DNA of 64,000 nucleotides. It comes from Sphingomonadales bacterium. Its GTDB lineage: Bacteria; Pseudomonadota; Alphaproteobacteria; Sphingomonadales; Sphingomonadaceae. A program made the position numbers and the translations under genes. Under the pieces are notes generated by a model, which had not been told where the DNA came from, ran no database searches, and was given only the letters and a program-made list of their open reading frames with translations. Below, piece after piece: positions 6,002-49,029 of the stretch (position 1 is the stretch's first letter; each line of letters starts with the position of its first letter). Location: positions 62,001 to 126,000 of the forward strand of contig JANXVZ010000030.1 of assembly GCA_025351405.1 (NCBI GenBank), read 5' to 3'.

Positions 6002-6439
6002 TCAGGCCGCCGTGACGGTGGCGGCAGCCTCTGCCGCGGCAATGGCGGCGTCGAGGCTAAGCAGGATCGATGCGTGGCGGGCCCGGTGCGGACGCGCCGG
6101 GGCGAAGACATCCATGCCCGGCCATGCCGGCGCGGTTTCACTGCGCGCCGCCAGCCAGTCCGCAAGTTCGGCGCGGGCGGCGGCAAGATAGGCAGGATGC
6201 TTGCCGATGATTTCGGCATCGACCAGCGTGGCCGCGGCCTGGCCCAGCGCACAGGCGCGGATTTCCTGCCCGAAGCGAACGACGCGGCCGGCGCTGTCAA
6301 GATCGATGTCGGCGGTAACCTTGCTGCCACACACCGGCGAAACCTTGGTGGCGCTGCCCTGCGCACCGTCGAGTCGCGCGGCGCCGGCGGTGGCAGCGGC
6401 AAGGCGCAGGATGCGAGTATTATAAAGTGTTTCGGACAT
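6002..6439 (-). CDS. IscU/NifU-like iron-sulfur scaffold protein lacking the third cysteine
   Basis: A 145-residue protein with the fold signature of IscU/NifU N-domains: SPVCGSK with Cys37 and EIRACALGQA with Cys63, exactly the positions of the first two cluster ligands in E. coli IscU. Where IscU has His-Cys near residue 105 (IHCSVL), this protein reads RHASILL, so the His is kept (His122) but the third cysteine is alanine (Ala123). Relatives in other sphingomonads are, from memory, similar, so this is a subfamily trait rather than a mutation. It may be a carrier or a protein that no longer assembles clusters alone. No iscS, sufS or hsc genes are nearby. It lies two bases upstream of the antiporter gene. 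Confidence 0.8.
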   Translation of the reverse strand: MSETLYNTRILRLAAATAGAARLDGAQGSATKVSPVCGSKVTADIDLDSAGRVVRFGQEIRACALGQAAATLVDAEIIGKHPAYLAAARAELADWLAARSETAPAWPGMDVFAPARPHRARHASILLSLDAAIAAAEAAATVTAA

Positions 6440-6485
6440 GCCCGTGGATATAGGCGATGCAGGGCGGGCTGGCGAGGGTGCCGGC

Positions 6486-7283
6486 TTAATCCGGTGTCCC
6501 GAACAGATCGTCGCGATACGCCGGCTTGACCAGTGGCTTCACCGCCTCGGGCCATGGCAGCGTGACGAGATAGCTGCCTTCCGAATATGGGCCGGCGACG
6601 TAGGGCGCCAGCAGCACGCGCAATTGCGGGGCGCGGCTGCCCATGCCGCCCCAGGGCAGCAGCGGCTGTTCGGCAAGTTTCGGGCAGGCATCGAAATCGC
6701 CGCCCAGCGTCTGGCCGTTGCGGCGCTGGCCGCGCTCGGCCGCCAGCGCCGCACAGAATGCCGGGCTCAACAATTTGCGGGCGTGCGGCCAATCGCTGAA
6801 CAGGTCGGGCAGGTTGATGGCGCGGTTGCTGCGCTTGTCCCAGATCTTTACATCGTAACCGGTGTTGCCATGGGCGCCGCCGGTATCGGAATAGCTTTCA
6901 TGGGCAAGCGCCAGCAGATGAGGCGTGTCGGCTGCGAGGCTCCAGTCATCGACCAGCGTATGCCGGCGGAAGGGAAAGCCGGCCTTTTTGGCACTGGCGG
7001 CATCGCGCCGCGCATCGGCGCGGGCCTTGCCGGCATCGGCCAGGGCGGTGGCGCGGATGGCGCGCAGCAAACCGGGCGCGGTTGCCGCCTCCGGCGCTGC
7101 ACGCCATCGCCACACCAGCTCCGGCGTCGATTGGCGGATGATCAGGGCCGACGCGGGGCCGATGGCGGTATTCGCTGCGGCGGGCTTGCGCGGCACCGCC
7201 TTGGCGACCACCGGCATCGCCGCTGCGAGCAGAATCCCGATCAACGCCGCCGCAACGCCTGTCCTTGCTCCGTCGCCGGTCAT
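6486..7283 (-). CDS. Secreted DUF3298 (PdaC-type) domain protein
   Basis: A 265-residue exported protein. Residues 1-28 form a signal peptide (MTGDGARTG, hydrophobic AALIGILLAAAMPVV, then AKA). The C-terminal half carries the DUF3298 pattern: HESYSDTGGAHGNTGYDVKIWDKRSN followed by INLPDLFSDW and, near the end, GPYSEGSYLVTLPW. DUF3298 is found with DUF4163 in the polysaccharide deacetylase PdaC and in lysozyme inhibitor-like proteins; its own activity is unknown. The longer open frame upstream runs antisense through cysS and is not coding; the ATG at 7283 is preceded by an AGGGG-rich stretch and begins the signal peptide. It lies 40 bases downstream of cysS on the same strand. Confidence 0.8.
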   Translation of the reverse strand: MTGDGARTGVAAALIGILLAAAMPVVAKAVPRKPAAANTAIGPASALIIRQSTPELVWRWRAAPEAATAPGLLRAIRATALADAGKARADARRDAASAKKAGFPFRRHTLVDDWSLAADTPHLLALAHESYSDTGGAHGNTGYDVKIWDKRSNRAINLPDLFSDWPHARKLLSPAFCAALAAERGQRRNGQTLGGDFDACPKLAEQPLLPWGGMGSRAPQLRVLLAPYVAGPYSEGSYLVTLPWPEAVKPLVKPAYRDDLFGTPD

Positions 7284-7323
7284 TGCCTGCCCCTGTCCTG
7301 GATTCGCTACGTCGCCATGCCGT

Positions 7324-8694
7324 TCAGCCGCGCCGCCATGTCGTGCCGCCGGCGCCGTCTTCGAGAATGATGCCGGCCGCGGCGAGTTCGTCGCGGATAC
7401 GATCGGATTCCGCGAAGTTGCGAGCGGCGCGGGCGGCGGTGCGGGCGGCGACTTGAGCGGCGACCTGGGCGTCGATGTGACCGTCATCCGCGACGACGGA
7501 CGTGCCGAGCCGCCAGGCTGCGCCCGGCGCCATCGTGTCGGCGCGTTGGAAGCCGGGCAAGCCGAGGAAGGCAAGAGATCCTAGCAGCGATTCCGCATCG
7601 CTTTCGATCGCCGACAGCGCGGCAAGCATCGCAGGCGTGTTGAGATCGTCGGCAAGCGCCGCCACCACATCGGGATGCGGTGCTGGTCTTTGGCCACTTG
7701 GGAAGGGTCCGAGCAGACGTCGCCATTTTTCAATCTTTGCCTTGGATTGCTCCAGCAACGTCTCCGTCCACTCCAGCGGCTGCCGATAATGCGCGCTGAG
7801 CAAGGCGAGCCGCAGCACCTCGCCGTGCCAGCCCTGCGCCAGCAGATCTTCCACCGTCACCACATTGCCGAGCGATTTCGACATCTTGCCGCCGTCGCCC
7901 ATGCCGAGGAAGCCATTGTGCATCCAGATGTTGGCCAATGGCGCGCCGTCGTGCGCGCAGGTCGATTGCGCCAGCTCGTTCTCGTGATGCGGGAATTGCA
8001 GGTCGAGCCCGCCGCCGTGAATGTCGATGGTCCGGCCAAGGCTTTGCGCGATCATCGCGCTGCATTCGATGTGCCAGCCGGGGCGACCGCGCCCCCAGGG
8101 CGAATCCCAACCCGGCTGGTCGCCGCTCGACGGCTTCCACAACACGAAATCGGCGGGGCTGCGCTTGTAGGGCGCCACCTCGACCCGGGCCCCGGCGATC
8201 ATTTCGTCCAGTGGCCGGCGCGACAGTGCGCCATAGCCCGCGAACGCCGGCACATCGAACAGCACATGGCCTTGCGCGGCATAGGCATGGCCCTTGGCGA
8301 CGAGCGTGCCGATCATCGCCACCATTTCCGGCACACTGGTGGTGGCATGCGGGGCAAGATCGGGGGCTTCGACGCCGAGCGCGCCCATGTCGGCGAGATA
8401 GAAACCCTCATAGCGCCGGGTGATCGTCTCGATCGGCACATCCTCGGCTGCCGCCCTGGCGATGATCTTGTCGTCGATGTCGGTGATGTTGCGGGCGTAA
8501 ACCACGTGTTCGGCGCCATAGTCATGGCGCAACAGCCGGCGCAGCGTATCGAACACCACCGCCGGGCGGGCATTGCCGATATGGGCGCGGCCATACACCG
8601 TCGGGCCGCAGACATACATGGCGACTCGCGCCGGATCGACGGGATCGAGCTGCTTTTTCGTGCGGCTCAGGGTGTCGTACAGCCGGATCGCCAT
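7324..8694 (-). CDS. cysS: Cysteinyl-tRNA synthetase
   Basis: Class I aminoacyl-tRNA synthetase charging tRNA-Cys, 456 residues, cytoplasmic. The zinc-binding cysteine and first signature appear as [18 protein letters not shown] (Cys29, HIGN at 38-41). A second zinc-site block is WHIECSAMI, the third is [14 protein letters not shown], and the second class I signature is KMSKSLGN near residue 272. The anticodon-binding helical domain follows. The ATG overlaps the stop of the upstream cvpA gene by one base (TGATG), implying coupled translation in a radA-cvpA-cysS string. Confidence 0.97.
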
Positions 8695-13195: not shown

Positions 13196-13975
13196 AGCGC
13201 TGGGGACGCCGCCGGCGACGCGACTGGCAACGCAACTGGCAGCCCCGGGCCTTGGCCGCAGCTTGCGCAGGAAATAGCCGATGATGCCGACGCCGATGAT
13301 CGTCGGGATCACCCAGATCGCCGGGTTGAAGGCGTGTTGCGGGAACATCTCGATAAGCCCGACCGACAGGAACGCTGTGTAGCTGGAGATACCCGTGGCC
13401 ACCATCGCCTTCAGGTGTTCCGGCAGCCAGGCGCCGCGGGGCACATCGCGCCGCGACAGGTACCAGAGATAGGTGAAGGTGGTGCCGAAGCCGACAACCG
13501 AAATGCCGATCATCAGCGGCTGGCGAAGTACTACACCCTGGATGGCGCAGTTGGCGCCGGTGACCAGCACCCCCAGTTGCAACGCGATCATGCTCCAGTG
13601 GCGGTTGGCGTCGTGGTGGCGTTTGTTGGCGACCATGACGAGGCCATAGCGCGTCATGCTGATCGTCAGCAGCGCGAGGTACAGCATCATCCAGCCGAAC
13701 AGCCCGCGATACAGCGCTTCGTCGGTCAGTTGTGGATGGTTGGCCAGCGGCGCGTAAAGCGACAGCAGCGCCATGCCCAATGCGCAGAAACCGGCAGAAT
13801 AAACGGCGTTGGCAAAAATCCGCCCCCAGCGACGGTGGGTTTTGCCACCCTTTGCCGCGGCCACTGCCACCCAAAAGCTTCCCAGCGCAGTGACGCCGGC
13901 ACCGATGTGCGCGGCCAGGATAAGCCGGAACAGCAACGGCACCAGCGCCAGCATCGTCGCCGAGTCGCCGTTCAT
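13184..13975 (-). CDS. Seven-helix integral membrane protein, DUF2306-like
   Basis: A 263-residue polytopic protein with about seven hydrophobic segments (near residues 10-38, 55-75, 88-110, 125-145, 150-172, 188-208 and 215-235). The N-terminal LILAAHIGAGVTALGSFWVAV with a histidine in the first helix, and RRWGRIFANAVY after it, resemble DUF2306-type and related heme-protein-like membrane families, but I am not certain of the assignment. An AGGGACAGG sequence precedes the ATG. It is convergent with the patatin gene (12-base overlap) and no functional partner is adjacent. Confidence 0.65.
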   Translation of the reverse strand: MNGDSATMLALVPLLFRLILAAHIGAGVTALGSFWVAVAAAKGGKTHRRWGRIFANAVYSAGFCALGMALLSLYAPLANHPQLTDEALYRGLFGWMMLYLALLTISMTRYGLVMVANKRHHDANRHWSMIALQLGVLVTGANCAIQGVVLRQPLMIGISVVGFGTTFTYLWYLSRRDVPRGAWLPEHLKAMVATGISSYTAFLSVGLIEMFPQHAFNPAIWVIPTIIGVGIIGYFLRKLRPRPGAASCVASRVAGGVPSASNG

Positions 13976-14047
13976 GCCTGTCCCTGCGCCCCCGTCATCG
14001 CCCTATAGTGAGCGATGACCGGCGGGGTCGCAAGCGTGGTCGATGTC

Positions 14048-14695
14048 TCAGACTGCCAACGTCCGGCGACGGCGCATTCCGATGCCAACGAGACCGAACC
14101 CGGCGATCATCGTCATCCAGGTCGCTGTATCGGGCACTGTGCCGAGGCCGATGGTGAAGCCGTGCCAATTCTCGTTGGTGTCGGTAAAGCTCAGCGATGT
14201 GATTGGCCCGCTGAACTTGAGCACGCCATGGACTTCGCCATTGCCGCCGAAGCCGTCGCTGGTGCCGTTGACGTTGAACGCGCCACAGCCCCAATAGCCG
14301 CAGCCCTGGCTGACGACGCTGAAGGCGTGATCGAACTGGACGACGTTGCCGTTCCAACTGGTGAAGGCGAGATAGACGGTGCTGACCGGCTGGCTGAAGG
14401 TGAGCGTTTTGACGCCACCGGCGTTGAGCGCGATGACATCGGTACCGAGCGGGCGGTTGACGAGGCTCTGCGTGTAACCGCCATCAACCCAATAGTCGGT
14501 GCCGGCATTGTTCAACTGCGTGAAGCTGATCGCACCCGAATAGGTGACGCCGACCGCGCCGATGTTGCCGACGACGGTGGTCGCATCAGGTTGCGAGGTC
14601 AGCGTGGCCCATTGCACGGTCACGGCCCCGGCGGCGGTGGCGGCCAGCATGGTCCCGGCGACGGCAAGGCTTGTGGCGAACTTGACGATCTTCAT
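14048..14695 (-). CDS. PEP-CTERM-type exported protein with variant PDTATW motif
   Basis: A 215-residue exported protein. Residues 1-24 are a signal peptide (MKIVKFATSLAVAG ... AAGA). The middle is Gly/Ser/Thr-rich and beta-like (for example SFTDTNENWHGFTIGL), typical of PEP-CTERM surface proteins. The C-terminus is VPDTATW, a hydrophobic helix MTMIAGFGLVGIGM, and a basic RRRR cluster: the sorting tail recognised by the exosortase/EpsH system, except that the usual Pro-Glu-Pro is Pro-Asp-Thr. Such proteins are cut and anchored or released at the outer surface, often with exopolysaccharide. No exosortase gene is in the window. Two cysteines lie close together in GCGYWGCGAF. Confidence 0.85.
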   Translation of the reverse strand: MKIVKFATSLAVAGTMLAATAAGAVTVQWATLTSQPDATTVVGNIGAVGVTYSGAISFTQLNNAGTDYWVDGGYTQSLVNRPLGTDVIALNAGGVKTLTFSQPVSTVYLAFTSWNGNVVQFDHAFSVVSQGCGYWGCGAFNVNGTSDGFGGNGEVHGVLKFSGPITSLSFTDTNENWHGFTIGLGTVPDTATWMTMIAGFGLVGIGMRRRRTLAV

Positions 14696-37353: not shown

Positions 37354-37647
37354 ATGCGTTCAATCAATCTTCTCGCCATTGCTGCCATCGCCGCTGCCAT
37401 TCCGTCGGTTCCTGCCGCTGCGCGCCACCACCACAACCAGTACGCGTACAACGGCCATGTCTATCGCAGCTACGACCAGTGCCGCGCCGAGAAGAGCCGG
37501 GCTGCAAAGCGTGGCACGGTCATCGGCGCCGTCGCCGGTGGCGCAGGCACGGCCTTGCTCGGTGGCAACCTTGGCGGCTCGCTGCTTGGTGCCGGTGTCG
37601 GCGCGGTGGCCGGCAATGCGATCGGCAGCGGCACCAAGAAGTGCTGA
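37354..37647 (+). CDS. Small exported glycine-zipper protein
   Basis: A 97-residue exported protein. The signal peptide is MRSINLLAIAAIAAAIPSVPAAA, followed by a His-rich start (RHHHNQYAYNGHVYRSYDQCRAEK) and a glycine-zipper domain (GTVIGAVAGGAGTALLGGNLGGSLLGAGVGAVAGNAIGSGTKKC). The two cysteines could form a disulfide across the domain. It is in the same family as the divergent gene, with a glycine-zipper but without the Gly/Tyr-rich body. GGGAG is present nine bases before the ATG. Function is unknown. Confidence 0.8.
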   Translation: MRSINLLAIAAIAAAIPSVPAAARHHHNQYAYNGHVYRSYDQCRAEKSRAAKRGTVIGAVAGGAGTALLGGNLGGSLLGAGVGAVAGNAIGSGTKKC

Positions 37648-37690: not shown

Positions 37691-38626
37691 TCACGAGCAG
37701 CTGGCGCCCCCGAGCACACAAAAGCGCGCGCAGTGCGGATGGTTGAGCGGCACCGGCCGTGATGCCTCCGCCAGCGTCGCACCCAGCTCGAACTGCGCAT
37801 CATAGGCCAGCAGGGTACACGCCAGTACGGCCGCGGCGTCGCTTCCCCGCCGTCTCACCACCATGCGGGATGTCGCGCACATCATCGCTGTTGGTTCGAC
37901 ATCGAGAATGCCCCAGCATGCCGTGGTAATTTCCGGCACATCGGCAGCGGCGTCCATTTCCGGAAACAGCACGAGTGGCGGCGTCGGCAAGCCCAGCCCG
38001 GCAAAAAGCGTGGCGTAGCCGGCCTGTGCGCCGGCTTCGTTCTCGCCCGCCAGCTGCCGGCCGGCGATGGCGATGGCGAAACCGTGCGACGATAGCCAGC
38101 GAATGCCCTCGATCGCGATCGCAAAACTGCCGTCGCCACGCTCTGCATCATGCCGCTGTGCGGTGTAATGATCGAGGCTGACGCGGAAGGTCAGGTGGTG
38201 GCGCGGCAATGCTAGGAGCTCAGCTTCAAGGCGACGCATCGGTCGCATCGCGTTGGTCAGCACCAGCACTTCGAAGCCGTGATCGAGACTGAGGCCGATC
38301 ATTGCCGGCGTCGCGCGGTTCATGAAGGGCTCTCCACCCGTGAAGCCGATCTCCCGCACCGGCAGCGCATCGGCCGCGATCTCATCAAGAAATTGCGCCA
38401 CCTCGGCCAAGGTCAGATATGCCAGCCTATCGTTGCGTGGGGAGCTTTCGATGTAGCAGTTGCTGCAGGCAAGGTTGCACAGTGTCCCGGTATTGAACCA
38501 CAGCGTCGTCAAGCCGTTGAGGGCCACCGACGCGCGTGGCTCTCCCTTGGCAGTGCGCAAGGGGTCGCGGAACTTGGCCGAATCGAGGCGGGGCGCTGCA
38601 ACATGAAAGGGTGACGCTTCGGTGAT
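37691..38626 (-). CDS. Radical SAM enzyme of the arsM cluster, probable ATC start
   Basis: A 311-residue radical SAM protein (if started at ATC 38626). The [4Fe-4S] motif is CNLACSNC; GFTGGEPFMN is the SAM-binding GGE motif, followed by RVSLDHYTAQRHDAERG. The end is Cys-rich (HPHCARFCVLGGASCS), perhaps for a second cluster. It is not the classical ArsS: the CxxxCxxC is present but the DUF3641 tail is not. The first conventional start is TTG 38560, but the frame stays open upstream with residues that look conserved (TEASPFHVAAPRLDSAKFRDP), no ATG/GTG/TTG occurs there, and ATC 38626 has AGGAG eight bases before it. It is divergent from arsM and probably shares its pathway. Confidence 0.82.
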   Translation of the reverse strand: MTEASPFHVAAPRLDSAKFRDPLRTAKGEPRASVALNGLTTLWFNTGTLCNLACSNCYIESSPRNDRLAYLTLAEVAQFLDEIAADALPVREIGFTGGEPFMNRATPAMIGLSLDHGFEVLVLTNAMRPMRRLEAELLALPRHHLTFRVSLDHYTAQRHDAERGDGSFAIAIEGIRWLSSHGFAIAIAGRQLAGENEAGAQAGYATLFAGLGLPTPPLVLFPEMDAAADVPEITTACWGILDVEPTAMMCATSRMVVRRRGSDAAAVLACTLLAYDAQFELGATLAEASRPVPLNHPHCARFCVLGGASCS

Positions 38627-38669
38627 GGTCGTTGCTCCTGCGGCATTTCCCCGGTTCGCGTTGCCGTTC

Positions 38670-38679
38670 TAACCGGTTA
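38670..38679. promoter_or_regulatory. Palindrome in the radical SAM / arsM divergent promoter
   Basis: TAACCGGTTA is a perfect 10-bp palindrome in the 131-bp gap between the two start codons. Around it, on the minus strand, TTGCGAC-N14-GCAAATTTC resembles a promoter for the radical SAM gene. It could be an operator for both genes; no ArsR regulator is encoded nearby. Confidence 0.35.
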
Positions 38680-38757
38680 CTGAAATTTGCCGAGTCCGTG
38701 TAACGTCGCAACGCGTATCTACGGATGAACACAGCAGGGCGTTGGAGCGTTCACCGC

Positions 38758-39810
38758 ATGAATCTCGAGAACAGCCGCAATTATTATGGCCAGGTCCTGC
38801 AAGGTTCGGCCGATCTGCGCACCGATGCATGCTCCACCGCCGAGGCACCCAGTGCGGAAATCCGCGCCGCGCTCGCCCGCGTCCACCCCGACGTTCGCGC
38901 CCGCTATTATGGTTGCGGCTTCATCGCACCCGCCGCCATCGAGGGTGCGCATATTCTCGATCTCGGTTCGGGTGCCGGGCAGGATGCTTATCTGCTGGCG
39001 CAGTTCGTTGGCGAATCAGGGTCGGTAACCGGCGTTGATGCCACGCCGGAACAGTTGGCCATCGCCGATGCGACGCGCGAATGGCACCGCGAGGCCTTTG
39101 GCCATGCGACCTCGAATGTGCGTTTCCTGGCGGGCGACATCGAAAATCTTGGGCAATTGCCCCTCGCGGACGGCAGTTTCGATGTCATCGTGTCCAACTG
39201 CGTCATAAATCTGGTCGCCGACAAGGGTGCGGTGTTTCGTGCCGCCCATCGTTTGCTCAAGCCAGGCGGCGAGCTGTATTTTTCCGATGTCTATGCCGAT
39301 CGGCGGGTACCCGAAGCCTTGCAATCCGACCCCGTGCTGCACGGCGAGTGCCTGTCCGGTGCACTATACTGGAATGACTTCCTGACCATCGCCAAGGCTG
39401 CCGGCTTTGCCGACCCAAGGTTGGTCACCGACCGGCCGCTCGGCATCGGTGACGCCGCGGTTGCCGCTATGGTCGATGGCATCAACTTCTTTTCAGCGAC
39501 ATGGCGCCTGTTCAAGCTGGAAGGCCTCGAACCCGAGTGCGAAGACTATGGCCAGGCCGTGGTTTATCGCGGCAGCGTCGCCGGCCACCCGAAGCGACTG
39601 ATCCTCGACAAGCACCATGTCATCGAGACCGGCAAGGTCTTTCCGGTCTGCGGCAATAGCTGGAAGATGCTCGCCGAATCGCGTTTTGCCCCGCATTTCG
39701 ATTTCATAGGTGATTTCTCGCGGCATTTCGGCATTTTTGCGGGTTGCGGCACCGCGCTGCCCTTCGACACCGCCACGCAAGCCGCCGACACGACGCCGGG
39801 TTGCTGCTGA
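38758..39810 (+). CDS. arsM: Arsenite methyltransferase
   Basis: A 350-residue SAM-dependent methyltransferase predicted to methylate trivalent arsenic. The four family cysteines are present: Cys25 (TDAC), Cys53 (YYGCGF), Cys148 (VSNCVINL) and Cys198 (HGECLSGALYW). Their spacing (28 residues in the first pair, 50 in the second) equals that in the characterised algal ArsM (44/72 and 174/224). The SAM site is ILDLGSGAGQDAYLL. The C-terminal extension ends with GCGTALPFDT and CC, also usual in the family. The start ATG 38758 has TTGGAG before it; an upstream ATG at 38725 has none. Four bases separate it from the epimerase gene. Confidence 0.93.
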   Translation: MNLENSRNYYGQVLQGSADLRTDACSTAEAPSAEIRAALARVHPDVRARYYGCGFIAPAAIEGAHILDLGSGAGQDAYLLAQFVGESGSVTGVDATPEQLAIADATREWHREAFGHATSNVRFLAGDIENLGQLPLADGSFDVIVSNCVINLVADKGAVFRAAHRLLKPGGELYFSDVYADRRVPEALQSDPVLHGECLSGALYWNDFLTIAKAAGFADPRLVTDRPLGIGDAAVAAMVDGINFFSATWRLFKLEGLEPECEDYGQAVVYRGSVAGHPKRLILDKHHVIETGKVFPVCGNSWKMLAESRFAPHFDFIGDFSRHFGIFAGCGTALPFDTATQAADTTPGCC

Positions 39811-39814
39811 ACCG

Positions 39815-40903
39815 ATGCGCATCCTCATCACCGGGGCTGCCGGGCTGATCGGAGGTGAGCTGACCTCGCGCCTGGCGCAGCGCGGCCATGCGGTTACGGC
39901 GCTGGTCCATCGCCGACACGACGTGTTCAACAATGCAGGCGCGCTGGTTGCGTCGCGCCGTCAGGGCAATCCCGCCGCCGGCGAAGTCGTGACAATGGCT
40001 GCCGATGTGCGGGAACCGGGCCTCGGCCTCGCCGGTGTGCCTGCTATCGACCTCGTGATACACGCCGCGGCGATAACCGCTTTCGATGCATCGCCCACGA
40101 TCTATACAGCGGTAAACATCGACGGCACAGCCAATGCTATCGCGCTGGCGGAGTCCACAGGCGCGGCACTGCTGCATGTCAGCACCGCCTATGTCTCCGG
40201 TCTGCGTGATGGCGCCATCCTCGAATGTGAGACCGGACGCGAATTCGTCAACGGCTATGAGGCAAGCAAGGCCGCTGGCGAAGCCCTGGTTCGCGCCGCC
40301 ATGGAGCGTGGCTTGCGCGCAACGATCGCTCGTCCATCCATCGTCGTGGGCGACTGGGAAGGTGGCGTCATCCGCGATTTCGACAATATCTACATGATCT
40401 TCAAGCTGATCGCCGAAGGCCGTGTGCGTGTCCTCCCGGCGGCACCCTGCGCCAGCCTCGATCTGGTACCGATCGACTATGTCTGCAGCGCGCTTGTGGC
40501 GCTTGCCGAGAATATTGACAGCGTAAAGGGGCGCGTTTTCCACCTCGTCGGCAGCGCGCCATTGGCCGTGGCCACTATCGGCGAAGCCATCGCTGCGGTG
40601 CCTGGCCTCGGGGTGCCGTGCTTTGTCGCACCCGAAGCTTTCGCCCCCGAAGCGCTGCCGCCGGTGGAGCGACGCTATCACGCCGCTGCGGCGTCGCTTT
40701 ACACCAGCTACCTCTTGCGCAGTCCGCGTTTCGAAACCGCCAATGCGCGGGCGCTGTTGCCGCCATGCCCGCCGACGGACCGTGCGTGGCTTGGTCGGCT
40801 GCTGGCGCACTGCATCGCCGCAGGCTTCGTAAAGCCCGTGCGCGGTCGACAATCGACGGGCGCGCCGGCCACCACAGGCACTTCATCGGACGTCCGGGTA
40901 TAG
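39815..40903 (+). CDS. NAD-dependent epimerase/dehydratase-like SDR protein
   Basis: A 362-residue extended short-chain dehydrogenase. The Rossmann opening is MRILITGAAGLIGGELTSRL (GxxGxxG), with DLVIHAAAITAFDASP, the catalytic STAYVSG ... YEASKAAGEALV (Ser, Tyr and Lys) and ARPSIVVGDWEGG. The region after residue 230 looks like a substrate domain of the thioester-reductase / sterol-dehydrogenase type as much as a sugar epimerase, so the substrate is open. It starts four bases after the arsM stop and is probably co-translated with it. Its 3' end overlaps the convergent glycosyltransferase gene by 21 bases. Confidence 0.82.
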   Translation: MRILITGAAGLIGGELTSRLAQRGHAVTALVHRRHDVFNNAGALVASRRQGNPAAGEVVTMAADVREPGLGLAGVPAIDLVIHAAAITAFDASPTIYTAVNIDGTANAIALAESTGAALLHVSTAYVSGLRDGAILECETGREFVNGYEASKAAGEALVRAAMERGLRATIARPSIVVGDWEGGVIRDFDNIYMIFKLIAEGRVRVLPAAPCASLDLVPIDYVCSALVALAENIDSVKGRVFHLVGSAPLAVATIGEAIAAVPGLGVPCFVAPEAFAPEALPPVERRYHAAAASLYTSYLLRSPRFETANARALLPPCPPTDRAWLGRLLAHCIAAGFVKPVRGRQSTGAPATTGTSSDVRV

Positions 40904-41608
40904 CTTTGCCAGCGTCTTCGGCCTGATCCCCAAGCCCCAGCGCACGCCGACCTTGAGATACACCCAGTTGGCGCGCCATTCCCCCCAGCGTGCAACGCGG
41001 CGGTCCGAGGTCAAGACAATGCGGTTGACCAGGCGCGTCCGACCCAAGCGCGCCATGCGGACACACAGGTCGGCCTCCTCCATCACCAGCATCGAGGCAT
41101 CGAATCCGCCCACGGTGTTGAAGTCGCGACGCCGAAAGAACATCGCATGGTCCCCAAAGAGCAGCCGGCCGCCGCGCAGGAACAGATGCGGGCGGAACAG
41201 CAGCGGCGCGTACCAGGTCTTGATCCAGTTGTGAAAGCTCGTCACCCAACGGGTCTTTTCCGGCCCGGCAAGGATGGCGGTGAAGCCGGCAAGGTTGATT
41301 CGGGCGTCGGCCATCGTGGCGCGCATCACCGCGATGGCATCATCGGGCAACCACGTATCGGCGTGGAGAATGCAGACAATGGGCGCGATTGTTGCCGCGA
41401 CGCCGGCGTTGCACTGGGCGGCGCGGCCACGGCCGACCCCCAGCACAGCCAGACCGCCGGCACGCGCGATCGCAACGCTCGCATCGCTGCTGCCGCCATC
41501 GACAACAATGATTTCCGCTGGGGCTGGATCGAGTGCTGCGAGACAGCGCAGCAGGCGGGGCAGCGAATCGGCCTCGTCGAGCATCGGGATGACGATGGCG
41601 ACGTCCAT
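40883..41608 (-). CDS. TIGR04283-type glycosyltransferase (arsenosugar-associated)
   Basis: A 241-residue GT-A family-2 glycosyltransferase. VAIVIPMLDEADSLPRLLRCLAAL and IIVVDGGSSDASVAIA are the standard start, ILHADTWLPDDAI holds the DxD-like metal-binding site, and FGDHAMFFRRRDFNTVGGFDASMLVMEEADLCVRMARLG is the acceptor region. The length and these blocks match TIGR04283, which is annotated as an arsenosugar-biosynthesis glycosyltransferase because of its co-occurrence with arsM and arsS. ATG 41608 overlaps the upstream TIGR04282 stop by one base (TGATG). Confidence 0.86.
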   Translation of the reverse strand: MDVAIVIPMLDEADSLPRLLRCLAALDPAPAEIIVVDGGSSDASVAIARAGGLAVLGVGRGRAAQCNAGVAATIAPIVCILHADTWLPDDAIAVMRATMADARINLAGFTAILAGPEKTRWVTSFHNWIKTWYAPLLFRPHLFLRGGRLLFGDHAMFFRRRDFNTVGGFDASMLVMEEADLCVRMARLGRTRLVNRIVLTSDRRVARWGEWRANWVYLKVGVRWGLGIRPKTLAKLYPDVR

Positions 41609-42177
41609 CAAAGCAACTCGGGCCAGCAGGCCAGATCTTCGGGACGATCGAGATCAGCGAGGGTGTCGAGCACCACGGCGCCGCTCAATCGCGCCAAGGT
41701 CGCGGCAAAAACCGTCGACGTACCCCACGCGATATCGATAAACAGTTCTGGCGCCGGTGCCGAGAGGCCGAGCAGCCAGTAGCCGCCATCCTCGGCCGGG
41801 CCGATGACGGCCGGTGCATGTGCAAGCGCTTCGGCGGCGGCCAGAAGATGCCGCGGCAGCAGCCCCGGAATATCGGCCCCGAGCAGCAACACCGGCAGTG
41901 CCTGTGCCGCCCGCGCCAGGCGTGCCCCCAGATCGCCCTCGCCCTGATCGACATAGGCAAGACCATCGCCCAGCCATCCGCGGAAATCGGCGATCGGCGC
42001 CCCCGTCACCCGCACCTCGCAATCAAGACCGCTGGCGCGGACCGTTGCAACCGTCCGCTCCGTCAGCCGGCGGTGGACATCCGCCGCACCTTGCTCGCCG
42101 ATGACAGGAACAAGGCGCGTCTTGGCCTTGCCCGGCGTCGGCCAGCGGGTAAAAAGCGCTACCCTCGGCCTGTCCAA
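41608..42177 (-). CDS. TIGR04282-type (DUF2064) nucleotidyl/glycosyltransferase
   Basis: A protein of about 189 residues in the DUF2064 family (TIGR04282), the second transferase linked to arsenosugar synthesis. RVALFTRWPTPGKAKTRLVPVIGEQGAA is the nucleotide-binding start, then LGADIPGLLPRHLLAAAEAL and AEDGGYWLLGLS, as in cofC/MobA-like nucleotidyltransferases. The start is uncertain: the frame has no ATG, and I use TTG 42177 because it precedes the conserved part directly; TTG codons at 42216 and 42222 are alternatives. It is coupled to the TIGR04283 gene. Confidence 0.8.
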   Translation of the reverse strand: MDRPRVALFTRWPTPGKAKTRLVPVIGEQGAADVHRRLTERTVATVRASGLDCEVRVTGAPIADFRGWLGDGLAYVDQGEGDLGARLARAAQALPVLLLGADIPGLLPRHLLAAAEALAHAPAVIGPAEDGGYWLLGLSAPAPELFIDIAWGTSTVFAATLARLSGAVVLDTLADLDRPEDLACWPELL

Positions 42178-42232: not shown

Positions 42233-44089
42233 TCAACGCCGGCCGCGACCGGCGGTCTTGCCTTCGGTCTCGAACAGGTTCGCGAGTTGATCGATGATGG
42301 TACCGCCAAGCTGTTCAGCGTCCATGATCGTCACGGCCTTGGCGTAATAGCGCGTCACGTCATGGCCGATGCCGATGGCAATGAGTTCGACCGGCGATCG
42401 ATTCTCGATGACCTTGATGACCTGGCGCAGGTGGCGTTCGAGATAGTTGCCGCTGTTGACCGACAGGGTCGAATCATCGACCGGCGCGCCATCGGAGATC
42501 ACCATCAGGATACGGCGATCCTCGCGCCGGGCCATCAGCCGGTCGTGCGCCCATAACAATGCCTCGCCGTCGATATTTTCCTTGAGCAGGCCTTCGCGCA
42601 TCATCAGCCCAAGGTTCTTGCGGGCGCGGCGCCATGGTGCATCGGCCTGTTTATAGACGATATGGCGCAGGTCGTTGAGCCGGCCGGGCTTTGCGGGGCG
42701 ACCGTCGGCGAGCCACTTTTCGCGGCTCTGGCCACCCTTCCATGCGCGCGTCGTAAAGCCCAGTATCTCGGTCTTTACAGCGCATCGTTCGAGGGTGCGG
42801 GCCAGAATGTCGGCACAGATTGCGGCAATCGAAATCGGCCGCCCCCGCATCGATCCCGAATTGTCTATCAACAGTGTCACCACCGTGTCGCGGAACTGGG
42901 TGTCGCGCTCGACCTTGTAGCTGAGCGCATAGGCCGGGTTGGTGACGATGCGCACCAGCCGCGCCGCATCGAGCAAGCCCTCCTCCTGGTCAAAATCCCA
43001 GCTGCGATTCTGCTGTGCCATCAGACGGCGCTGCAGGCGGTTGGCCAGCTTGGTCACGGCCGATTGCAACGGGATCAATTGCTGGTCGAGATAGCCGCGA
43101 AGTCGGGTCAGTTCCTCGGCATCGCACAGGTCTTCGGCGCCGACAACCTCGTCATTCGCGGTCGTATACGCTGTATAGTCGAAGTTGGACGGCAGGTCCG
43201 ACATTGGCAGATTGGGCCGCCAAGGGCTCATGCCTTCCTGACCGTCCTCACCCATTTCGGCTTCGGAGACCATGTCGGTGTCCATCTCGACGTCGCGCTG
43301 TTCCGACGATTCAGGATCGTCGGACGACTCCTCTGGCCGGGTTTCGGTGGATTGGTCCTGTCCACCGGCATCCTGCTCGGCTTCCTCGCCCTCTTCGCCG
43401 GGCTGGTTCTCGTCCTCCTGCTCGTCGCTCTCCTCGCCCTCCTCGGGGTCGGCATCGGGATCGACGCCAAGGCCAAGGTCCGACAGCACGCGGCGCATAA
43501 CCTGGGCAAACGCCGCCTGGTCGCCCTGGGTGTCGACAAGGTCGTCGAGATGTCCGCCAGCCTTGGCCTCGAGGTCGCCGCGTACCAGGTCGACAGCATT
43601 TTCGGCGGCAGAGGGAATGGGCGCGCCGGTCAACCGTTCGCGCACCAGCAGGCCGAGGGCCGTGGCCAGCGGCACCTCGTCAGCGCTCCGGGCCCGCACG
43701 ATCGGGTCGGCACGAACACGCATCTCGGTCATGCGATCGAGATTCTTGGCGACCCCGAGCATTTCGGATGATCCCAGCGCCTCGATGCGAGCCTGCTCGA
43801 CAGCGTTCCAGATATCGCGCGCCACCCCGGCTTCGGGTTGGTCGAGCCCATGCAATTTGGCATCATGATGGCGCCGGCGCAGCGCAAACGAATCGGCCCA
43901 GCCGCGCACTTCGGCGACCTGCTCCGCCGGCAGCGCCCGGCCCGGCTGCGGAACCCGCGCCTGGTCGCCGAAGCACGATGGCTTGTCGGCGGTATATGCG
44001 ACATCGATATCGGGCGCATGGCCGAGCGCACGCAGCGTTGCAGCAACGGCCTGCCGGAAGTCTTCGATAGGGTTTTCGGGCTGGCTCAC
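42233..44089 (-). CDS. cobT: CobT-type cobaltochelatase subunit (VWA protein)
   Basis: A 618-residue protein. The N-terminal ~220 residues include the helical CobT region ([18 protein letters not shown]), followed by a very acidic linker (about residues 218-280: [18 protein letters not shown] ... ) and the CobT/VWA domain with the MIDAS motif [17 protein letters not shown] near residue 410. With CobS and CobN it forms the aerobic cobalt chelatase, but no cobN or other cob gene is here. The start is GTG 44089, five bases after the cobS stop. A role as the VWA partner of a MoxR-type chaperone is possible. Confidence 0.88.
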
Positions 44090-47375: not shown

Positions 47376-48167
47376 TCACGCCTCGGACCCGAATGCGAAG
47401 GCGTCCATGCGCAGGATCCCGTGGGTCGTGCTGGCGTGCAGATGCCGGCCTGGCGCGCCCTGACCCGCACCGAGCGCCACGAACAGCGGCATCAGATGCT
47501 CTTGCGTCGGGTGGTTGCGCCGTGCCTCGGGTGCTCGCTGGCGATAGGCGAGCAAATCCTCGACCCGCCCAGCCTCGATGGCGCTGGTCATCCAGTCGGC
47601 GAAACGGTCGACCCATTGCGGGGCCGGCGCATGCAGTGCGTTGTAATATTCGCGAAAACTCGAAAGATCATGTGTGAAGCTGCCGGAGCCGACGATCAGC
47701 ACACCCTCTTCGCGCAACGGGGCGAGCAGCTGCCCGAGGTGGAAATGATGTTCGGGGCCGGCATCGGGCTGGATCGACAGCTGGACCACGGGCACATCGG
47801 CCAACGGATACATGAGACGCAGCGGAACCCATGCGCCATGGTCGAGACCACGGACCGGGTCACGCTGCACCATGCTGCCTCCCGCCTCGAGCAGACCGAC
47901 GACGCGCTCAGCCAGCCATGACGAGCCGGGTGCAGGGTAGCGGATGGTGTAAAGCTCGGCCGGAAAACCGTGAAAGTCGTGGATGGTCGCGTTGACCGCC
48001 GCAGTGGTGACCTGTGGCACCGCCGTCTCCCAATGTGCCGAGACCATCAGGATGGCGCGGGGCTTTGCCTCGAAACGGTCGGGCAAATGCTCGAGGAAAG
48101 CCCGCGCCGGCGCATCGGTCAGGGGAAAGGTCGGGGCGCCGTGAGAAACGAAAAGGGCGGGAAACAT
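47376..48167 (-). CDS. DODA-type extradiol ring-cleavage dioxygenase (YgiD-like)
   Basis: A 263-residue class III extradiol dioxygenase of the 4,5-DOPA-dioxygenase type. FVSHGAPTFPLTDAPA has the first metal His (His9), VSAHWET the second, and HDFHGFPAELYTIRYPAPG follows; LDHGAWVPLRLMYPLADVPVVQLS is another conserved block, with SGSFTHDLSSF later. These are the metal ligands and catalytic His of the family. Substrate is unknown; catechol-like compounds are expected. The start is ATG 48167. It does not sit with other ring-cleavage genes. Confidence 0.9.
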   Translation of the reverse strand: MFPALFVSHGAPTFPLTDAPARAFLEHLPDRFEAKPRAILMVSAHWETAVPQVTTAAVNATIHDFHGFPAELYTIRYPAPGSSWLAERVVGLLEAGGSMVQRDPVRGLDHGAWVPLRLMYPLADVPVVQLSIQPDAGPEHHFHLGQLLAPLREEGVLIVGSGSFTHDLSSFREYYNALHAPAPQWVDRFADWMTSAIEAGRVEDLLAYRQRAPEARRNHPTQEHLMPLFVALGAGQGAPGRHLHASTTHGILRMDAFAFGSEA

Positions 48168-48273
48168 AGGGACCCCATTGTTGAAGCCAACTTTTGGACC
48201 CTGCGAAAAGCTATAGCGACCTCAGAAAACCGGCGACCAGCTATGCGAATCCGCAGAGTCCACCGCTGATGAC

Positions 48274-48840
48274 CTAGACAACGGGCGGCGAAAATCGCTT
48301 CACCCACGCCGCAACAGCGGTGATGAAGCTGTCGACGAAGGTTTTGCCCGACCCTTCGGCCAGCGCGCCCTTGTCATCGAACAGGGCTGCCGAATGGCCG
48401 ATATAGGCCTCTGGCTGTTGCAGCGTCGGCATGTCGAGAAATACCAGGCTTTGCCGCAGATGGTGGTTGGCACCGAACCCGCCCAGCGCACCAGGCGATT
48501 GGGACAGGATTGCCGCCGGCTTGCCCGCCCAGACGCTGGCGCCATAGGGACGCGAGCCGACGTCGATGGCGTTTTTGAGCGGCGCCGGGACGGACCGGTT
48601 GTATTCCGGCGTGATGAATAGGATGCCGTCCTGTGCCGCAACCGCCGCCCGAAACGCTGTCCACGCCGGCGGAGTCTCGGCTTCCCTGTCAGGATTGTAG
48701 AGCGGCAGGTCGCCGATCTCGATGATCGTGAACCGTCCGCGATCGCCGCCGAGCTGCTGGATCGCGTTGCCGAATTTCCGGGTCAGGCCGCTTGCCTGGA
48801 GACTGCCGACCAGGATGCCGATCGCGGGATGTTTCGTCAT
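48274..48840 (-). CDS. NADPH-dependent FMN reductase
   Basis: A 188-residue flavodoxin-fold reductase (ChrR/YieF-like). KHPAIGILVGSLQASGLTRKFGNAIQQL is the phosphate-binding loop, ILFITPEYNRSVPAPLKNAIDVGSRP the FMN-contact loop, and KPAAILSQSPGALGGFGANHHLRQSL the late beta-strand region. Members reduce quinones, chromate or azo compounds with NAD(P)H. AAGGA lies eight bases before ATG 48840. No neighbour suggests a specific substrate; chrA lies 24 kb away. Confidence 0.9.
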   Translation of the reverse strand: MTKHPAIGILVGSLQASGLTRKFGNAIQQLGGDRGRFTIIEIGDLPLYNPDREAETPPAWTAFRAAVAAQDGILFITPEYNRSVPAPLKNAIDVGSRPYGASVWAGKPAAILSQSPGALGGFGANHHLRQSLVFLDMPTLQQPEAYIGHSAALFDDKGALAEGSGKTFVDSFITAVAAWVKRFSPPVV

Positions 48841-49029
48841 GTCTTGTTCCTTCTCAACACTGAATGACACTGGGCTTGTTGGCTGGCGACCGCTTGAAGG
48901 CCGACCGGCGGATACACCCCGGATGGTCGATTATCACGGCAAGAGTGTGGTGCAGGTGGCTTGATCGCACGCATCTCTGCTAACCTGGTGGCATAAGGAC
49001 CGTGGTCCGCCAACGAGGAAAGCCTTTTC

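Follow-up and report, generated by a model that had tools for sequence, protein, structure and literature searches.

The expected arsenosugar gene unit comprises ArsM, an adenosylating radical SAM enzyme and a TIGR04282/TIGR04283 pair. The locus studied here raises the question of what such a unit may do when arsS is missing and another radical SAM gene takes its place. In the window, which is the whole 64,000-nt stretch of DNA that was analysed, this gene set was found with a non-ArsS enzyme in the position of ArsS. On the evidence presented below, the block probably represents an alphaproteobacterial arsenosugar-type organoarsenical pathway in which a distinct radical SAM family (rSAM) does the job of ArsS.

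Layout of the block and its methyltransferase

Five adjoining genes, all intact and with no internal stops in their open reading frames, occupy positions 37691-42177 (Table 1). A sequence-only reading had proposed that they form one block, and this was upheld, as they lie together and recur as a conserved unit in genomes of the family. The reading had also observed correctly that none of the five encodes an arsenate reductase or an efflux pump. The region between the divergent rSAM and arsM genes presumably carries the promoters of both, judging from the gene layout. Conserved rSAM residues run on upstream of the TTG at 38560 to ~38614, a stretch with no standard start codon. The SDR gene starts 4 bases after the arsM stop, and the ATG of the TIGR04283 gene overlaps the stop codon of the TIGR04282 gene by one base.

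Table 1. Coordinates of the block genes and flanking features in the window.
Feature	Position	Strand	Details
Glycine-zipper protein (left flank)	37354..37647	+	Edge marker of block; outside pathway
rSAM (radical SAM enzyme)	37691..38560	-	289 aa from TTG at 38560
rSAM/arsM divergent intergenic region	38561..38757	.	Basis: gene layout
arsM, arsenite methyltransferase	38758..39810	+	350 aa; Cys 25, 53, 148, 198; C-terminal CC
SDR-family oxidoreductase (thioester-reductase/epimerase-like)	39815..40903	+	PF07993 120.6 bits, PF01370 75.8 bits
TIGR04283-type glycosyltransferase (GT2)	40883..41608	-	TIGR04283 181.2 bits (cut-off 182)
TIGR04282-type (DUF2064, CofC-like) transferase	41608..42177	-	TIGR04282, PF09837 102.5 bits; TTG start taken, uncertain
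cobT, cobaltochelatase subunit (right flank)	42233..44089	-	TIGR01651 855.4 bits; outside pathway

The block is here an insert between the glycine-zipper gene and cobT. In genome G072 (locus L191), matches to these two genes lie ~175 bases apart and the five block genes are absent between or near them, and cobT had no match in any of the 39 family rSAM loci. A compositional island was considered and rejected, as the GC content of the block (0.63-0.67, against 0.62-0.69 around it) gave no firm sign of one; third-position GC of the block genes (0.71-0.81) fell on the low side, inside the spread of the other window genes.

The TIGR04282 protein scored 175.9-176.9 bits, above its family cut-off of 134, and the TIGR04283 protein fell 0.8 bits short of a cut-off that was reached in only 4 of 149 family genomes. 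The SDR protein scored 104.6 bits against TIGR01746, under the cut-off of 213.

ArsM matched the solved arsenite methyltransferases 5evj (343.5 bits, over residues 18-345 of the 361-aa reading) and 4fr0 (270.2 bits). Its four family cysteines, as previously claimed, are present and aligned with those of both structures, and they were invariant in all 23 block ArsM sequences compared. Their spacing had been called exact, which needs correction: in the alignments the intervals are 28/95/50 in the window ArsM, 28/96/50 in 5evj and 28/102/50 in 4fr0, so that the middle one differs. The protein scored below the cut-offs of NF038099 (AsSugarArsM; 89.8 bits, cut-off 400) and NF008823 (PRK11873; 171.3 bits, cut-off 263), as did the long ArsM lying near a true ArsS in locus L155 (92.2 and 180.8 bits, respectively). 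The ArsM counts given below refer to long ArsM at E 1e-40; short forms such as that of L151 are missed by this search, except in 21 genomes searched with NF008823.

The radical SAM enzyme compared with ArsS

The rSAM protein matched PF04055 with 55.9 bits and carries the motif C28-x3-C32-x2-C35 together with six C-terminal cysteines. Residues C28, C32, C35, C215, C228, C248, C277 and C281 were invariant in 54 sequences, and C288 was retained in at least 90% of them. The AlphaFold2 model (mean pLDDT 89.3) resembled BlsE (Z 19.6, residues 15-288), SkfB (Z 18.7), SuiB (Z 18.4) and MoaA (Z 17.2); ArsS was not among the 50 fold matches listed, which tells nothing either way. These features point to a member of the radical SAM superfamily with a predicted twitch/SPASM-type fold, in which the CX3CX2C motif and the cysteine-rich C-terminal part are predicted to bind clusters.

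The absence of arsS reported by the sequence-only reading was borne out. Against TIGR04167 (ArsS) the rSAM reached 64.2 bits, far below the cut-off of 300, over residues 15-164 and hence the N-terminal half only, and none of the 149 family genomes encodes a protein reaching that cut-off. DUF3641 (PF12345), the C-terminal domain of ArsS, was not matched in the window rSAM at E 0.01 or in the distant rSAM of L171 at E 1, whereas the ArsS of L151 gave 192 bits. In profile comparisons (hhalign) the radical SAM cores of rSAM and ArsS aligned at 98.6 and 98.8% over ~175 columns. Homology over the whole length was rejected, as only the cores align and the C-terminal halves alone gave at most 7%, with no significant similarity, a point against rSAM standing in for ArsS. 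A forced global alignment (99.6%) places the C-terminal cysteines in register; because of that low value for the halves alone, a common layout (MC ... C ... C-x2-3-C ... G-[AS]-S-C) is no more than suggested. The best NCBIfam match of rSAM was the Rv1681-family radical SAM (NF049973; 104.8 bits over residues 18-171, cut-off 380), and it did not extend over the whole length. Judged by sequence, rSAM is not ArsS but a distinct radical SAM family. The substitution noticed in the window recurs across the Alphaproteobacteria and also beyond that class, in 5 of the 299 phylum genomes.

Distribution of the block genes

Among the 149 family genomes, rSAM and TIGR04283 were found in an identical set of 43. 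The block genes are associated beyond chance (ArsM versus rSAM, Fisher p 7e-19, without phylogeny correction), and the block constitutes a conserved accessory unit. In five genera of mixed state (g1, g41, g68, g72, g78) rSAM and TIGR04283 shift jointly, and in G001 and G095 the block genes are dispersed over three sites and all retained. A disulfide reductase was present in 31 of 39 family loci when any similar reductase in the same stretch was counted (E 1e-8), while clustering gave 26 of 40. The 39 loci exclude the window and three genomes with short contigs (G022, G018 and G037), the last two of which were examined separately. MTA phosphorylase shared a stretch with rSAM in 15 of the 39, and the window genome encodes it elsewhere. 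As a block-specific marker it was rejected, with one copy in all six genomes tested, block or no block.

The behaviour of arsM itself gives room to another explanation, in which the product of the core unit (rSAM, TIGR04283, TIGR04282 and SDR) contains no arsenic and is, for instance, a modified sugar or nucleoside, arsM being either an accessory or an independent detoxification gene. Sixteen of the 43 rSAM/TIGR04283 genomes of the family lack this ArsM, and in 15 of these (G022 and G010 being incomplete) a second search with NF008823 gave at most 60.1 bits, compared to 171 for the window ArsM. On the rSAM tree (n=40) its presence changed 10 times, at least 6 of them on well-supported branches, and was hardly clustered, with 55 of 500 shuffles equally low. 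The pair rSAM and TIGR04283 is acquired or lost as one, and arsM more freely. A wider scan of rSAM relatives covered the best 80 of at least 589 stretches (E 1e-3), 58-77% identical and from many alphaproteobacterial orders; at least three (L075, L086, L104) appear to repeat G068, G087 and G121, so that the two sets overlap. TIGR04283 occurred in 23-24 of these 80 loci, depending on the query. Some wider loci (L079, L108, L112, L120, L122, L148, L205) encode an importer of the phosphonate type together with a phosphoesterase, with no arsM in the stretch. Locus L150 (Sphingomonas oligophenolica S5.1) likewise showed no arsM over the 20.9 kb examined. Locus L074 (Parasphingopyxis marina GrpM-11) has rSAM, the reductase, arsM, the SDR and MTA phosphorylase in the stretch examined, where neither transferase was found. 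The sequence-only reading had staked its case on the transferases and rSAM not occurring mostly without arsM elsewhere, and the outcome was mixed: arsM lies near rSAM in 22 of 39 family loci, the 16 family genomes above lack it, and of the 80 wider loci, many of which are on short contigs, 11 had arsM nearby, one of these arsM hits (L099) being only 37% identical.

Several observations weigh against an arsenic-free product. This ArsM occurs in 27 family genomes, every one of which also possesses rSAM and TIGR04283. At phylum scale (299 genomes, E 1e-40), ArsS was found in 114 genomes and rSAM in 22, never both together, and rSAM fills the genomic place of ArsS. TIGR04283 occurred in 138 of these genomes, alongside rSAM or ArsS in 121, and it accompanied rSAM in 21 of 22 genomes. 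Long ArsM was present in 30 (9 with rSAM, 17 with ArsS, 4 with neither). Other counts of this set speak against the arsenosugar-type reading: 17 TIGR04283 genomes have neither rSAM nor ArsS (3 of them in the class of the window), TIGR04283 was missing in 15 with rSAM or ArsS, and long ArsM was present in 26 of the 138 TIGR04283 genomes, short forms such as that of L151 being uncounted. The presence of the transferases is tied more closely to rSAM or ArsS than to arsM. Outside the class, two genomes have arsM adjoining an rSAM of 37-39% identity, with a gap of 32 bases (G155) or 80 bases (G248). Organisms lacking arsM could, in addition, take methylated arsenic from outside. We consequently consider an arsenic-free product to be unlikely.

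ArsM acts alone in many bacteria, and Acr3 was not found in the whole window genome at E 1e-40, as would suit a methyltransferase working by itself in detoxification beside neighbours that are there by chance or hitch-hiking. In the 149 genomes, however, rSAM and TIGR04283 have identical distributions within which all ArsM genomes fall, and the genes are retained even where dispersed, which renders this explanation very improbable. The arsinothricin cluster of Burkholderia gladioli (arsQ, arsM, arsL; PMC8552651) is also defined by a radical SAM gene beside arsM, but ArsL, reported there to transfer an aminocarboxypropyl group, is described in that source as having 428 aa and three conserved cysteines and is set apart by this description from the shorter, 289-aa rSAM with nine cysteines and a predicted twitch/SPASM-type fold; no ArsL name occurs in the best 25 of 48 families matched by rSAM, and the block combines two sugar-type transferases with the lack of an arsQ-like permease. 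On these descriptions an ArsL-like function seems very unlikely.

A candidate arsenosugar-type pathway

The partner genes connect the arsenosugar-type reading of the block to the ArsM-ArsS pathway, in which ArsS is described as adenosylating arsenic (PMC12159101, citing Cheng 2021). Twenty ArsS loci, picked by eye for spread from the 114 ArsS genomes, were examined; TIGR04283 occurred in 6 and arsM in 7, in the same stretch, which counts against the arsenosugar-type reading. One of them (L155) contains arsM, TIGR04282, TIGR04283, a VTT-disulfide reductase fusion, ArsS and MTA phosphorylase, and the rSAM locus L171 contains a TIGR04282-like gene, TIGR04283, arsM, rSAM, a VTT protein and a disulfide reductase. 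Some loci of either kind thus share arsM, both transferases, the disulfide reductase, the VTT protein and MTA phosphorylase, in addition to the alignable CX3CX2C core of the radical SAM enzymes. The two systems differ in the radical SAM protein, with its low ArsS score and lack of DUF3641, and in the SDR: 34 of the 39 family loci with rSAM contain one, while none was matched among the 20 ArsS loci. The sequence-only reading had also suggested a new methylated, glycosylated arsenical. As ArsS loci contain these same partners, it is simpler to expect an arsenosugar of the same kind. That reading was therefore partly supported: the ArsS swap is real, and a new product does not follow from it.

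In the proposed pathway, ArsM would use S-adenosylmethionine to methylate arsenite to trivalent dimethylarsenic, as its family and conserved cysteines suggest. The rSAM may then cleave S-adenosylmethionine and attach the 5'-deoxyadenosyl group to the methylated arsenic in the manner of ArsS, a role proposed because of where its gene lies and which fold class it belongs to; the product would be 5'-deoxyadenosyl-dimethylarsine (C12H18AsN5O3, calculated [M+H]+ ~356.07). An MTA-type phosphorylase would take off adenine and leave an arsenic-bearing ribose phosphate, after which the TIGR04282 and TIGR04283 proteins might see to the activation and transfer of sugar units, and an oxidation state might be altered by the SDR; these last roles are guesses. 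Radical SAM adenosylation followed by adenine loss is also the logic of the HpnH-HpnG type in hopanoid synthesis. The order of steps is the same, by analogy only, and rSAM scored 38.5 bits against HpnH (cut-off 225). Among the open-licence papers listed in literature searches, none linked the rSAM family to arsM or arsenosugars in its title or abstract opening.

A stronger proposal, which we regard as doubtful, is that the rSAM family arose separately as a second enzyme for arsenic adenosylation (or for forming another carbon-arsenic bond), replaced ArsS in Alphaproteobacteria, makes an arsenical absent from ArsS strains and, where arsM is lacking, acts on methylated arsenic imported via phosphonate-type transporters. 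Under this proposal, that arsenical might be reduced or linked to a lipid, as the extra SDR and a neighbour resembling a lipid hydroxylase would hint.

The suggestion that the block serves biosynthesis over plain detoxification is helped by the partners held in common with ArsS loci and by the low frequency of the Acr3 pump, which was found in 6 of 43 family genomes with the block and in 50 of 106 without it. This low overlap suggests that organoarsenical production may stand in for arsenite pumping. If the arsenosugar-type reading is true, such chemistry would not be bound to ArsS, there would be a second radical SAM route to the carbon-arsenic bond, and ArsS-based surveys would overlook a likely counterpart in Alphaproteobacteria, which bears on the question of which organisms produce organoarsenicals in water and soil.

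The five-gene block and its putative insertion site

The five genes that the sequence-only reading had grouped, encoding a radical SAM enzyme (rSAM, 289 aa), ArsM, an SDR protein and TIGR04283- and TIGR04282-type transferases, were all intact and lay where it had placed them. The rSAM gene (minus strand) and arsM (plus strand) are divergent, with a gap of 197 bases counted from the TTG at 38560, and the arsM stop is 4 bases from the SDR start; the TIGR04282 and TIGR04283 genes are both on the minus strand, with a stop/start overlap of one base. No ATG, GTG or TTG was found in the rSAM frame between the conserved residues upstream of the TTG and the preceding stop, and the gene may use a non-standard start codon, or the sequence may be in error here. 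The block adjoins recQ and cobT-cobS, with ATP synthase, aspartate kinase, lysA and argH genes farther out, all ordinary core genes. A family scan covered 30 window proteins, and none of the 25 outside the block matched an arsenic-named family at the thresholds used.

In the family genome G072, homologues of the flanking genes are ∼175 bases apart with no block between them, while four of the five block genes (all except arsM) lie ∼320 kb away. The block therefore behaves as an insert at the window site, with loss in G072 as the alternative in this single comparison. In G020 and G106, the other sampled genomes of the genus, recQ and glycine-zipper genes were not found adjoining cobT, and rSAM, TIGR04283 and ArsM were all absent.

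Coordinates of the features observed in the window and in the compared genomes and plasmids
Location	Position	Observation
Window	37691-42177	five-gene block
Window	38560-38614	upstream of rSAM; residues conserved in relatives extend past the TTG start
Window	47376-48870	DOPA-dioxygenase-like LigB gene (175.7 bits, cut-off 233); adjoining gene of the FMN-reductase family (PF03358), no NCBIfam match at E 1e-5
G072:C1	624029-625882	cobT homologue, one TAA within the matched stretch
L041, rSAM locus	13781-14584	fatty-acid-hydroxylase-family gene, weakly OlsE-like (ornithine lipid hydroxylase; 66 bits, cut-off 475)
L155, ArsS locus	6276-8417	single 713-aa frame that joins a VTT membrane domain to a disulfide reductase
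L204, Marinobacter adhaerens HP15 plasmid pHP-187	10001-10871	rSAM match (38% identity, two pieces); no gene listed there in the PLSDB table; set among chemotaxis and symporter genes; arsM not matched in the stretch
L205, Roseomonas haemaphysalidis plasmid p546-1	6013-18395	rSAM homologue (65% identity) in a larger set: TIGR04282, two DUF547 proteins, second radical SAM protein, phosphonate-type ABC importer, phosphoesterase, VTT protein, disulfide reductase; arsM not found within the stretch

Protein families and the place of ArsS

ArsM is similar to solved arsenite methyltransferases (343.5 bits for 5evj), and its four family cysteines are present and invariant in 23/23 block sequences. Their spacing, described earlier as exact, is slightly off, the second-third interval being 95 vs 96 and 102 in alignments to solved enzymes. 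The TIGR04282 protein scored above its family cut-off and the TIGR04283 protein 0.8 bits short. Against the profile of ArsS, the known arsenosugar radical SAM enzyme, rSAM scored 64.2 bits (cut-off 300) with the match confined to its N-terminal half, and no DUF3641 domain was found in it; judged by sequence, it is not an ArsS member. Its predicted structure (mean pLDDT 89.3) resembles twitch/SPASM-type radical SAM enzymes over nearly the full length, the best match being BlsE (Z 19.6, rmsd 3.4, 242 residues), and three plus six cysteines are conserved.

ArsS was not detected above cut-off in any of the 149 family genomes. In a scan of 299 phylum genomes (E 1e-40), ArsS was present in 114, none from the window's class, and rSAM in 22: 17 of that class (56-67% identity, a range setting aside the window's own genome, which is counted in the 17) and five outside it (37-39%). 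No genome (0/299) carried both. The earlier observation is sound, and its central point, that the place of ArsS is taken by a different radical SAM protein, is confirmed and holds well beyond the window's genome. TIGR04283 occurred in 138 of the 299 genomes, 121 of them also with rSAM or ArsS and 17 with neither; 15 had rSAM or ArsS and no TIGR04283. The long ArsM was found in 30, accompanied by rSAM in nine, ArsS in 17 and neither in four (81-93% complete).

Two ArsS loci (L155, L162) and two distant-rSAM loci (L171, L175) have overlapping gene sets, drawn from arsM, TIGR04282, TIGR04283, a VTT protein, disulfide reductase, MTA phosphorylase and DUF547; the L155 fusion supports a functional link between the VTT protein and the reductase. 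As TIGR04283 was nearby in 6/20 ArsS loci and arsM in 7/20, co-occurrence at the level of whole genomes carries more of the shared-partner argument than gene neighbourhoods do.

A proposed arsenic role and its alternatives

Within the family, rSAM was found in 43/149 genomes (42 full, and one contig-edge fragment in G037), and TIGR04283 above 150 bits in exactly those genomes, with 86 bits the highest score elsewhere. Window-type ArsM occurred in 27, every one within the 43. Among 39 rSAM loci examined, the stretch held SDR in 34, TIGR04283 and TIGR04282 in 33 each, and disulfide reductase in 31; arsM was present in 22 of these loci and close to rSAM in 11/80 wider loci. Less frequent in the 39 were a fatty-acid-hydroxylase-like gene (16) and MTA phosphorylase (15). 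Even where the block genes are spread over three sites, as in G001 and G095, none is lost, and across the family the genes behave as a conserved unit. A lipid-linked product is conceivable from the recurring hydroxylase-family gene.

On the rSAM tree, arsM presence changes 10 times, at least six of them by well-supported branches. Fifteen of the 43 genomes carry the rSAM/TIGR04283 core with no ArsM by either search, and the sixteenth without the window type (G099) has a different ArsM. Either such arsM-less carriers use methylated arsenic from other organisms, or the core has an arsenic-free function. The phosphonate-type importer PhnD was found in 6/80 wider loci and in L205; such importers by arsM-less rSAM genes would fit uptake of an organic arsenical or an oxyanion, and equally of a phosphorus compound. 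PhnD/PhnE-type importer genes and a metallophosphoesterase were observed close to rSAM in L079, L108, L112, L120, L122 and L148.

The Acr3 efflux pump, absent from the window's genome, was found in 56/149 family genomes, 6/43 with rSAM vs 50/106 without (Fisher p 1.5e-4, uncorrected for lifestyle, kinship and genome size, each of which could be a source of this rarity).

A new product, as previously suggested, does not follow from the presence of rSAM in the place of ArsS. ArsS is described as adenosylating arsenic in oxo-arsenosugar formation (PMC12159101), and the equivalent genomic place of rSAM suggests, by analogy, that its reaction may be equivalent to that of ArsS.
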